Of a stretch of 64,000 nt of DNA, positions 50,316 through 58,323 are shown in pieces. The translations under genes were made by a program, and so were the position numbers. Every line of letters begins with the position of its first letter. Position 1 is the first letter of the stretch. Below the pieces are notes generated by a model. The model was not told the DNA's origin and made no database searches. It saw only the letters and a list, made by a program, of their open reading frames with translations. The stretch is from an uncultured Nitrosospira sp. (GTDB lineage Bacteria; Nitrospirota; Nitrospiria; Nitrospirales; Nitrospiraceae), in assembly GCA_900696515.1 (NCBI GenBank), contig CAADGK010000133.1, positions 62,001-126,000 on the forward strand, read 5' to 3'.

Positions 50316-52703
50316 TTACCCCCTTAGCTGTGCGAGAGCCTGTTCGGCTTCTCGTCGTCCTTCGAATGGCTCGGGACTCTTGAGCGCCTTGGCAAGATAA
50401 GCGCGGGCCTCATCCCGTTGACCGGACCGGAACAAAGCGATGCCAAGGTGATAATTCAGGACAGACAGGTCCGGCGACTTGGCGACCGCGTCTTTCAGCA
50501 ATCGGATCGCTTCCTCCTGTTGCCCCATCTTCAGTCGAACCCACCCGAGTGTGTCGATGAACAACGGATGCGGCGCCTCCTTCTCGAACTCTCTGCTGAG
50601 ACCGAAGGCTTTCTGCAAACTTGCCGGATCCCCTTTATGATCGACGAGCAGCACGGCCAAATTATTCGCCGCCAGCAGATTCCGCGGATTCAACCGCAAG
50701 GTCGCCTCGTAGGCGGTCACGGCATGATCAAGCTGTCCTTGTTGCGAATGGGCGGACGCCAACAATAGGTACAACTCTTCGCTCTCGGGGTTGGCGGCGA
50801 GACCATCCGTTACAATTTGCACCGCGACATCCGGCTTTTGCTTCGACAGGGACAAGGAGGCCCAGTCAAGCCATGGTGTCAGCCACTTGGAATTGATTCG
50901 AGTCGCTTCCCGATAGTGGAGCGCGGCCTCGTCATACTGCTGAGCCCGCGACAAGACTTCCCCCAGAAGTCCATGAGCAAAGGGATGGTCCTTGCGAGCA
51001 GCCAGGATGGACTCCAGCCTGGCTGTCGCGCGATCCACCTGCCCTAACGCCACTTCCACCTTTACAAGCGACAGTAACGGCTCGGGTTCATTCGGAGCGA
51101 GCGCGATGGCCCTTTCGTAGGCCAGACTCGCCTCACTGAGACGGCGCTGCGCCTCGTAAAACCGGCCCTCGGCCAGCAGCGCAACGGGCTGCTTTCCCCC
51201 TGATGCCTGGCGAAGTCGCGTTAAGGTGCGCTCCGCTTCCTGCCAGTTTTTCGTCACCACATCCAGCGTCATCAACATCTCAAGCGCGGTGACATCATGA
51301 GGACGTTGCTTCAAGAGCTCTTCGAGTCGCGCACGGGCCTGCTGGTGCCGACCGCTTCGGCTCTCCAGTAAGGCCAGTGATCGCTTGGCATCCGCCTGGT
51401 CCGGATACAGAGCCACGGCCCGTTCAAAGCTGTCTTTGGCAAGGTTGATATCGCCGGTCAGCTGATAGGCCTGACCAAGCAGATAATGCACCGTACCCAG
51501 TTCGGGCTGATCATGGAGGACCGTGCGGAACGCCTGCACTGCATCCTTCCCGCTTCGTCGAGTCAATGCCATTCGCCCCACAAGAACCAACCCTTCCGTC
51601 GATCGAGGGTTCTCTTTTAATACCTCCTGAACCTGGCGTTCAGCATCGGCCTGCTTTCCCTCCAGAAAGTCCATTTCCGCCAACTTGACCTTGGCCTCCA
51701 GACCAATCGGCTTGTCTTTGTGCTCTTCGATCAGGGCGGCATAGCGCTGACGCGCTTTGACACCCTGTCCGCTTTGTCTATAAAGCGTACTGAGCCCGAA
51801 CTGGATTGGAGCCGAATGCGGGAGCTGTGCCGCCGCATCAAGCAGCGCCTGTTCGGCAGAAGCCACGTCCTTGTTGTTCACAAAATACTCGGCAAGCGCC
51901 AGACGGCGCTGCTCGCTGGTCGGATCAAGACCGATCGCGTCACGCAACACGGCTTCCGCTTTGTCCCTCGCTCCCTGCTCCATATGGAAACGGGCCAGTC
52001 GCACCCGATGATCAAATGACATCGGTTCAGCCTCGATCATCCGCCGTAACACGGCCTCGGCGCCGGCCGGATTGTTCGCCTGCGCCAAGACCCTGTTCAG
52101 GACACTGAGGAGATCCATGTTCCTGGAATGAATCTCCAACGCACGCCTCACTGTGGATTCCGCATCACGATATCGCCGTTGCTGCCCATACAAGGTCGCG
52201 AGGAGGACGGCGACATCCGGTTCCGTCGGAAACTCTTTTGCAAGCGCTTCCGCCTTGGAAATAACGGAAGGACTCGCCTCTTCAGTTACGGCCTGGGCCG
52301 CGATTTTCAGCGCACGGGCCTGGGGATGATGAGGATGTTGCTTCAATACTGTGTCCGCTGCTTCCACCACATGGTCGGTCAACCGAGCTTCAAGGTAGTA
52401 TTTCCCGAGAGTCATGAGGGCGGCCGTATGACCGGGAACCAGGCGGACCGCTTCCTGATACAGTTGAACGGCATTGCGCCAGTTTTTCTCTTTTTCCTCG
52501 ACTTGGGCGAAGAGATAGTAGGCTTCCGCATCTTTGGGGTCGATCTTCAGCACATTTCTCAGCGCCACTCTCGCCTTGGGATAATTGGCGGCATCCATGT
52601 ACTCCGTGGCTCGGGCGAAGTATTTCGCCTTCCGCTCCTCCGGACCGCCGCACGCGGTCACGAGAACGGCCGCAAGCAACACGATGCCGACCATCTTGCT
52701 CAT
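50316..52703 (-). CDS. prsT: PrsT-type TPR lipoprotein of the exosortase system
   Basis: A 795-residue lipoprotein (lipobox LVTAC, Cys18) made almost entirely of tetratricopeptide repeats from about 25 to 790. Size, lipobox and position between the sugar transferase and the export protein match the TPR lipoprotein commonly present in PEP-CTERM/exosortase clusters. GGAG precedes the ATG; the longer in-frame start adds a charged stretch before the signal. It probably organises the secretion complex in the periplasm or outer membrane. Confidence 0.85.
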   Translation of the reverse strand: MSKMVGIVLLAAVLVTACGGPEERKAKYFARATEYMDAANYPKARVALRNVLKIDPKDAEAYYLFAQVEEKEKNWRNAVQLYQEAVRLVPGHTAALMTLGKYYLEARLTDHVVEAADTVLKQHPHHPQARALKIAAQAVTEEASPSVISKAEALAKEFPTEPDVAVLLATLYGQQRRYRDAESTVRRALEIHSRNMDLLSVLNRVLAQANNPAGAEAVLRRMIEAEPMSFDHRVRLARFHMEQGARDKAEAVLRDAIGLDPTSEQRRLALAEYFVNNKDVASAEQALLDAAAQLPHSAPIQFGLSTLYRQSGQGVKARQRYAALIEEHKDKPIGLEAKVKLAEMDFLEGKQADAERQVQEVLKENPRSTEGLVLVGRMALTRRSGKDAVQAFRTVLHDQPELGTVHYLLGQAYQLTGDINLAKDSFERAVALYPDQADAKRSLALLESRSGRHQQARARLEELLKQRPHDVTALEMLMTLDVVTKNWQEAERTLTRLRQASGGKQPVALLAEGRFYEAQRRLSEASLAYERAIALAPNEPEPLLSLVKVEVALGQVDRATARLESILAARKDHPFAHGLLGEVLSRAQQYDEAALHYREATRINSKWLTPWLDWASLSLSKQKPDVAVQIVTDGLAANPESEELYLLLASAHSQQGQLDHAVTAYEATLRLNPRNLLAANNLAVLLVDHKGDPASLQKAFGLSREFEKEAPHPLFIDTLGWVRLKMGQQEEAIRLLKDAVAKSPDLSVLNYHLGIALFRSGQRDEARAYLAKALKSPEPFEGRREAEQALAQLRG

Positions 52704-52777
52704 ATCGACACTCCGGCCACGACGCTCATGCGGCTTCCCAACTTTCATGCCTGTAGGTTATTACGTAACGTGCTTCG

Positions 52778-56018: not shown

Positions 56019-56143
56019 AGGACAGAATCACTCACCGAATGATGATCAATGGGTCAAACAAGCGACGCCGATCCGAACAAGCGGGGCGAAACCTGATTGT
56101 CTATCGGAACCGATTCGCTGTCGATTGATTTCGGAGAAAGAAC

Positions 56144-56175
56144 GGGCTGGATATCTATGTCGAGATATCCAGCCC
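56144..56175 (-). terminator. Hairpin terminator after VPLPA gene 1
   Basis: A 13-bp perfect stem (gggctggatatct 56144-56156, agatatccagccc 56163-56175) with a 6-base loop, 25 bp past the stop of the VPLPA-CTERM gene. On the minus strand it is followed by GTTCTTTCTCC, a weak T-tract. Probably ends the target-gene transcript before the exosortase gene. Confidence 0.7.
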
Positions 56176-56883: not shown

Positions 56884-56952
56884 ACCACCACTCCTGCTAA
56901 AGGTTGCCGCATCGTTACTCAATTAGGGACACGTAGGAATGGATAACTGTCT

Positions 56953-56969
56953 AGCAAACCACGGGCCAA
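56953..56969 (-). promoter_or_regulatory. Sigma-54 promoter of VPLPA gene 1
   Basis: Minus strand reads TTGGCCCGTGGTTTGCT, matching the -24/-12 consensus TGGCACG-N4-TTGCW with one difference (C for A). The GG and GC pairs are separated by exactly 10 bases. Transcription would start near 56942, about 58 nt before the ATG. Confidence 0.75.
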
Positions 56970-57264
56970 CCTGCAAAACTCCTATGTCGCTGAAAACAAA
57001 GGCAGCAAATAGAGCCTCTCATCGTAGTACTGTGTCAACAATCCTGCAGCACTGTTCAAATATGTGACGACTGCCAGGTGGGACGGAAAAAACTGCCTGC
57101 TCTGTTCTGTCCTCTCGCTCCTCCTGACAACGGAGGGGCCTGCGAAGGCATTAATCGCATCACGTCGAGGGAGCGAAATCTTTCCCTCTCTCTCACGGAA
57201 AACCCGGAAGCTCCTCCTCATCCTCGGCCTCCATGCGGTTGAGGACTTTTCAACACCCTGCAAG

Positions 57265-57313
57265 TAACAGAAAGGGCGTGAGACCTCGGTGAGGTCTCAC
57301 GCCCTTTCTGTTA
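57265..57313 (-). terminator. Perfect 23-bp hairpin after VPLPA gene 2
   Basis: Two 23-base arms (57265-57287 and 57291-57313) are exactly complementary around a GGT loop; the stem contains agggcgtgagacctc. It begins 17 bp past the stop of VPLPA gene 2. The outer arm on the minus strand is T-rich (CCCTTTCTGTTA), in line with a strong terminator or RNA-stabilising structure. Confidence 0.75.
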
Positions 57314-57329
57314 AGGAACAATGTCTTGC

Positions 57330-58043
57330 TTAGACCTGAAATCCTAGCAGATGTCGCCTCCTCCCTGCACCCAAGCCAACCAGGGAAATGAGGCCAATAC
57401 CGAACAGGATAACCGCAGCTGGCAACGGCACAGCCGTCAGACTGTTGATTGATCCAGCATACTCAGCGCCATTTCGACTCATATCCTCAAAAAGGAGATG
57501 CCATCTTCCCGTTACACCTCGTGGATTGATCAGAGTGGAAAAACTTGGCGGATCCTGGAGTGATGTATCAGAAAATAGGCCCCCCATCACACGGTCAAGA
57601 CGAAGTTCAAAACTGACTGGTGCAAACTCCACTGGTGGCGTACCGTTCAGAATCCGGTCACCTGTAACAGCAGTTACCAATTCCCATCGGTCCCCATTAC
57701 TACCGCTCCCAAGATCAATGTTTTTTGAAATCGTGACGGCATTGGCCCCAGATGTGAAGAAGGACCTATGGGTCTGTCCAGGTGATGGTACTAGAATATT
57801 CAGACTGAAGCCTGTTACGGCCCCAGTGTAACCCCCTAGGCTACTGCCCGGCACAGGAGTCAACTGAAAAGAGCCGGTAACTGGAACCGAGCCAAAAACT
57901 GGGTCTAGGTCTAGATCTCCGGTAAATGAAAATGAATGGTTCACCAGGGCTGCATGCACTGCCGTCGTCGGAACCGAGGGGACAAAAGCCGTAACAGCGA
58001 ATAGGATCAATCCCCTTCGAAGCCATTGTTTGAGCATGAACAT
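57330..58043 (-). CDS. VPLPA-CTERM sorted surface protein 2
   Basis: Exported protein of 237 residues, paralogue of the neighbouring gene. Signal peptide (MFMLKQWLRRGLILFAVT, cleavage near VHAAL), beta-rich middle, and the sorting signal VPLPAA at residue 205, stretch VILFGIGLISLVGLGAG and basic RRRH end; the last 33 residues align position by position with those of protein 1. AGGAGG precedes the ATG. A sigma-54 promoter lies 50-80 bp upstream. Function unknown. Confidence 0.9.
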   Translation of the reverse strand: MFMLKQWLRRGLILFAVTAFVPSVPTTAVHAALVNHSFSFTGDLDLDPVFGSVPVTGSFQLTPVPGSSLGGYTGAVTGFSLNILVPSPGQTHRSFFTSGANAVTISKNIDLGSGSNGDRWELVTAVTGDRILNGTPPVEFAPVSFELRLDRVMGGLFSDTSLQDPPSFSTLINPRGVTGRWHLLFEDMSRNGAEYAGSINSLTAVPLPAAVILFGIGLISLVGLGAGRRRHLLGFQV

Positions 58044-58104
58044 ACCCCGGTCCTCCTGGAAATGATTGGCTCGTGACATGAATAACCTGAACGGAGTACG
58101 ACTC

Positions 58105-58121
58105 AGCAATTCACGGGCCAG
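58105..58121 (-). promoter_or_regulatory. Sigma-54 promoter of VPLPA gene 2
   Basis: Minus strand reads CTGGCCCGTGAATTGCTG, again TGGCCCG-N4-TTGCT with correct 10-base spacing between GG and GC. Predicted start near 58094, about 50 nt before the ATG. It shares the same non-consensus C with the promoter of VPLPA gene 1. Confidence 0.75.
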
Positions 58122-58323
58122 CGAGGCGTGAGCTATCTGACTAAAAACTCAGGAAGATGATCGCAATCCACAGGAGCAACGCTTTCCATTTATGTACACC
58201 GGCGTTCAATCTTGTCTACACCCTGCACAAACCTCCAAAAATATTTCCCACTTGTGCGCCATTCCATCGAGCACCTCTGTCTTGAGCTTGAACATGCCAA
58301 GCCATGAGACCCCTGGCACAGCA

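Follow-up and report, generated by a model that had tools for sequence, protein, structure and literature searches.

Predicted sigma-54 promoters with a near-fixed upstream block precede VPLPA-CTERM genes, and not the exosortase D gene, in Nitrospira

Sigma-54 control of PEP-CTERM genes is already known in Proteobacteria. The layout described there consists of a motif ending in TTTACA, followed after about 63 nt by a sigma-54 site that lies about 71 nt from the start codon; it is paired with PrsR, PrsK and PrsT and is common to Proteobacteria only (Haft 2006; PMC1569441). In Aquincola tertiaricarbonis, pepA is RpoN1-dependent and its transcription start was mapped by primer extension at a -24/-12 site, TGGCAC/CTGCTT (PMC9850573). 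In the open-licence papers searched, we found no account of how XrtD/VPLPA systems, or exosortase targets in Nitrospira, are regulated.

The window analyzed here covers 64 kb of contig C133; the Nitrospira genome to which it belongs has 4.59 Mb in 144 contigs. Within an exopolysaccharide region, transcription on the minus strand meets first target 2 (58043-57330), then target 1 (56883-56200) and finally xrtD (56018-54444). The two targets (227 aa for target 1, 237 aa for target 2) are paralogues with 37% identity. Both have a signal peptide and a VPLPA-CTERM C-terminus reading LTAVPLPAAV-(I/L)-LFG-(I/A)-GLISLVGLGAG and then basic residues (LTAVPLPAAVLLFGAGLISLVGLGAGGLRNLR in target 1). This VPLPA-hydrophobic-basic tail is plain in the sequence and invariant among relatives, and it does not reach the TIGR03370 cut-off (target 1, 11.5 versus 25.35 bits; target 2 unlisted). 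Likeness to the flocculation protein PepA (NF033554, cut-off 80 bits) is weak, with 27.5 bits over most of the length of target 2 and 16 bits for target 1, and a PepA match at E<=0.01 is seen in 6 of 27 target-family members. No solved structure resembling the targets was found by sequence. The predicted sorting enzyme is XrtD, a VPLPA-specific exosortase with an EpsI domain that scores 542 bits against TIGR04152 (cut-off 400). XrtD probably cleaves both targets, and their products are expected at the cell surface or in the matrix. As the VPLPA profile misses the Nitrospira tags, the genome was searched with a degenerate VP-x-PA DNA pattern; of its 76 occurrences, only the two targets and a VPLPA-like gene at C101:73889 are convincing. 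A gene for a PrsT-like TPR lipoprotein also lies near xrtD (50316-52748; 295 bits, cut-off 312), though PrsK and PrsR are absent.

The pattern TGGCNCG-N4-TTGCW occurs exactly twice in the window, both times on the minus strand and once ahead of each target, compared to a mean of 0.08 sites in dinucleotide shuffles of the window. The -24/-12 site of target 1 (TGGCCCGTGGTTTGCT; 56953..56968, minus strand), which is kept in every relative with an upstream region, and that of target 2 (TGGCCCGTGAATTGCT; 58105..58120, minus strand), supported by pattern search and promoter alignment, are both perfect TGGCCCG-N4-TTGCT sites with 10 bases between GG and GC, in agreement with a sigma-54 promoter of the TGGCACG-N4-TTGCW kind. 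An earlier note on this DNA had reported these near-identical sites and their exact spacing, and had put the leaders at about 58 and 50 nt. The distances from site to start codon, 69 nt for target 1 (ATG 56883) and 61 nt for target 2 (ATG 58043), fit these leaders if transcription starts about 11-12 nt past the -12 box. The note had named a lack of rpoN as an argument against its own proposal; the genome carries one full-length copy (430 bits, cut-off 277) with an intact RpoN box (ARRTVAKYR). The genome-wide search that it had suggested returned nine sites versus one for a reversed control, and about seven of the nine precede genes. The sigma-54 observation is thus confirmed, and is stronger than first stated. 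Judged from the sequence, both target sites probably have promoter activity.

Elsewhere in the genome, two near-identical sites (TGGCGCGGCT[C/T]TTGCT) at C49:3873 and C94:6693 (L004:1501 and L006:1501) precede short, zinc-ribbon-like genes whose products start with MECPKCKGTM (57 aa at C94); their contigs also encode enhancer-binding proteins. At C11:32042 (L001:1501), a perfect site precedes a gene whose exported product has 330 aa; the contig also encodes response regulators.

Alignment of 27 promoters showed a composite architecture that the earlier note had missed, although the sigma-54 promoter that it described stands. Counted from the -24 box, a block reading ACAnAnTTGAAC...ACAcaG starts about 90 bp upstream and a second one, TTTTCAGnGACATA (with TTTTCA), 28 bp upstream. 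For target 1, the upstream block (CACATATTTGAACAGTGCTGCAGGATTGTTGACACAGT) is located at 57029..57066 on the minus strand, its TTGAAC starting 91 bp before the -24 box; that of target 2 (GACAAGATTGAACGCCGGTGTACATAAATGGAAAGCGT; 58179..58216, minus strand) is more divergent and its TTGAAC starts 89 bp before the box. The nearer block of target 1 (TTTTCAGCGACATA; 56983..56996, minus strand), 28 bp before the -24 box, is possibly a second protein site. The alignment has 22 invariant columns, nine of them in the 16-bp -24/-12 site and eight in ACAnAnTTGAAC, and the spacer between the blocks is unconserved, with no invariant column from 60 to 82. Conservation extends into the leader of the targets, where TTCATACGTGTYCCTAA lies at a distance from the promoter that differs by about 11 nt among copies (window 56884-56952 and relatives).

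The distance from TTGAAC to the -24 box varies only from 87 to 93 bp, and is exactly 90 bp in 26 of the 46 non-redundant sites left once those with >=85% identity were removed. Enhancers of sigma-54 promoters normally tolerate movement, and a near-fixed distance is unusual for one. No clear dyad was found in the upstream block, only a weak periodicity of about 10 bp (10/20/30 bp). The block is a putative activator-binding site.

In the Nitrospira xrtD loci, TGG(C/T)C(C/T)-N5-(T/C)TGCT is found in all 25 VPLPA genes with a complete upstream sequence, and in the analyzed genome TTGAAC-N80-95-TGGYCY-N5-YTGCW matches only the two targets. A sequence model of the composite promoter (R1; threshold E<=1e-3), run on 79 congeneric genomes, gave 61 matches in 46 of them, and each match has a VPLPA gene, or what is left of such a gene, downstream. 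XrtD scores above its cut-off in 45 of these 46 genomes (Fisher p 3.6e-9). Independently of R1, the genomes were searched with a profile (A3) of the target proteins, and 57 of the 59 close-family VPLPA genes that it detected have an R1 match 47-68 bp upstream. The two exceptions are a gene in G040, whose site TGGTCTAGCTCTTGCT was missed by R1, and one in G067 that is cut by the contig end. Four R1 matches lack an intact close-family gene and correspond to degraded copies (one in G064, two in G025) or to a gene cut by the contig end (G051).

Since R1 was built from sites near xrtD, matches away from this gene and in other genera are an independent test. About nine matches are unlinked to xrtD and still lie ahead of VPLPA/VPLPP genes. 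In a phylum-wide sample, two other genera of the same family yield R1 matches, in seven genomes and each time before a VPLPA-like gene (one of the seven has a degenerate motif and one an altered tail). A marginal match in another family (G416) is false. The promoter signature has the specificity needed to compile the regulon purely from sequence. In other phyla, good sigma-54 sites were seen in two of six VPLPA-type genes near xrtD, both gammaproteobacterial, which are too few to conclude. These two loci (L071 and L075) carry the sigma-54-like sites TGGCTTATATATTGCT and TGGTATAAATATTGCT. A target-gene copy interrupted by a stop retains the full composite promoter (L120:2662-3270, L163).

Not every likely XrtD substrate is under this control. 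A divergent VPLPA subfamily (protein E ~1e-40 to 1e-53), often adjoining the close family, has no R1 match; upstream of four members, we detected nothing sigma-54-like in three and a bare GG-N10-GC in one. The VPLPA-like gene C101:73889 of the analyzed genome also lacks the composite promoter. Sigma-54 control therefore covers a defined subset of the likely substrates, and this second subfamily was missed in the earlier note, whose claim for the targets themselves holds. The divergent subfamily without the composite adjoins the sigma-54-controlled one in G064, G015, G009 and G040 (L196, L195, L198, L272). In many Nitrospira there is also a second exosortase of XrtD type that has neither a VPLPA gene nor a sigma-54 composite immediately upstream (G017:C5, G018:C27, G005:C1 and others; loci L278, L279, L285).

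The exosortase gene itself presents a different arrangement. As had been claimed, xrtD has no sigma-54 site before it, and the same is true of 25 relatives. The gap between target 1 and xrtD holds an intrinsic terminator (56144..56175, minus strand), a 13-bp hairpin with a T-rich tail, and this hairpin is kept in relatives despite changed stem bases. After it we identified a sigma-70-like promoter of xrtD (TCGACA-N17-GACAAT; 56096..56124, minus strand), conserved in the genus as TCGACA-N17-GA(C/T)AAT. A 23-bp perfect hairpin directly after target 2 (57265..57313, minus strand) is its probable terminator. The proposal that the targets are regulated apart from the enzyme is supported by this conserved promoter behind a conserved hairpin. 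With hairpins after the targets and a promoter of its own for xrtD, target 2, target 1 and xrtD read as three separate units. As the targets have predicted sigma-54 promoters whereas xrtD has an ordinary one, cells can probably switch the exosortase cargo on or off without changing the enzyme.

The earlier note placed the targets in line with PEP-CTERM systems, implying a link to PrsK/PrsR; the sigma-54 promoters stood up to analysis and this link did not. If real sigma-54 promoters were driven here by the known PrsK/PrsR two-component system, one would point to the shared layout (upstream motif, spacer of tens of bp, sigma-54 site, leader of about 60-70 nt; PMC1569441) and to the nearby PrsT-like gene, itself below its cut-off. 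However, no response regulator of the genome reaches the PrsR cut-off (TIGR02915; best 433 versus 502.6 bits), and no PrsK (TIGR02916) was detected in it at E<=1e-40. Among the 79 congeneric genomes, true PrsR is found in 21 and PrsK in 13, and neither tracks the promoter (Fisher p 0.80 and 0.13, respectively). Nor do these promoters, with their TTGAAC block, carry the PrsR-type motif 1, whose TTTACA end is separated from the sigma-54 site by about 63 nt. Control by PrsK/PrsR is thus largely refuted and very improbable. As PrsR and PrsK are missing and do not follow the promoter, we infer that the activator at the TTGAAC block is another enhancer-binding protein. The genome encodes at least 13 activators bearing GAFTGA. 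In Nitrospira relatives, xrtD has no activator gene closer than 8 kb, and the upstream block was not found in those activator loci of the genome that were examined. A regulator on the same contig (C133:51570) was considered and rejected: it lacks GAFTGA, adjoins a probable sensor kinase and looks NtrX-like.

Two further explanations would do without sigma-54 control of this kind. The conserved region could act chiefly as a cis-acting RNA or as a sigma-70 promoter region, the GG/GC match being incidental, and both the near-fixed spacing of the upstream block and the conserved leader stretch go in this direction. Yet the 27 aligned sequences have no conserved RNA structure, Rfam gives no match, and a sigma-70 promoter was looked for ahead of the targets and not found, while the strongest invariance falls exactly at TGG and TTGC with the right spacing; we consider this explanation very unlikely as well. 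Shared ancestry is the other, with recent gene copies having carried along functionless upstream DNA, as the paralogy of the two targets and the promoters kept by some degraded copies might suggest. Here, however, the blocks are kept while spacer and flanks have diverged, 46 sites remain after removal of near-identical ones, and the layout persists in unlinked copies and in two other genera, which leaves shared ancestry the least probable of the alternatives.

Our preferred reading, to which we give a probability of about 0.88, is that the VPLPA-CTERM targets are single-gene units driven by sigma-54 and an activator, with xrtD separate under a sigma-70-type promoter. Sigma-54 RNA polymerase would bind TGGCCCG-N4-TTGCT without being able to open the site alone. 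An ATPase activator (enhancer-binding protein) bound about 90 bp upstream, at ACAnAnTTGAAC...ACAcaG, would be switched by a signal, contact the polymerase and open the promoter. Transcription of the targets would start about 12 nt past the -12 box, and the short transcripts would end at the hairpin behind each gene. XrtD would be expressed apart from them, through a sigma-70-type promoter of its own that follows the hairpin of target 1. With substrates activated through sigma-54 and xrtD expressed from a standard promoter, the supply of substrate would be inducible and the enzyme available by default for processing.

We also lean, with less assurance, towards a dedicated sigma-54 regulon in Nitrospiraceae, with a non-PrsR activator and its element, that would cover exosortase D substrates wherever they lie and nothing else, the second VPLPA subfamily and the enzyme staying outside. 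If so, sigma-54 control of exosortase cargo arose with different activators in different phyla.

The main nitrite oxidisers of wastewater plants belong to Nitrospira, and in such plants the formation of flocs and biofilms is important. PepA, the nearest characterised relative of the targets, is required for floc formation in other sludge bacteria, and a sigma-54 signal may thus control aggregation in Nitrospira too. By analogy with the RpoN-dependent pepA (PMC9850573), the target products may serve floc or biofilm formation.

Compared to the XrtD/VPLPA-CTERM families (TIGR04152/TIGR03370), the locus agrees in having an exosortase above the curated cut-off and VPLPA-hydrophobic-basic C-termini, and differs in its Nitrospira tags, which do not reach the TIGR03370 cut-off. 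With Aquincola pepA (PMC9850573) it shares a sigma-54 site at an exosortase substrate and the weak PepA match (27.5 bits). Here, however, PepA scores remain under the 80-bit cut-off, the tag is VPLPA and not PEP, the enzyme is exosortase D and not of PEP-CTERM type, and the activator appears to be different. The PEP-CTERM/PrsK/PrsR arrangement (PMC1569441) is the closest in design: single-gene exosortase substrates, an upstream motif, a sigma-54 site and a leader of about 70 nt, with regulation placed on the substrates rather than on the enzyme. That system is reported only from Proteobacteria, whereas the present one belongs to Nitrospiraceae and XrtD/VPLPA, carries a TTGAAC block at a near-fixed distance from the site in place of the TTTACA-ending motif, and occurs with PrsR/PrsK absent or uncorrelated, which indicates that pairing with PrsR is not essential to sigma-54 control of exosortase cargo. 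What is new is therefore the phylum, the exosortase D substrates, the different upstream element and the lack of PrsR, and this control, known from Proteobacteria with PrsR, would now also include Nitrospirota with exosortase D.
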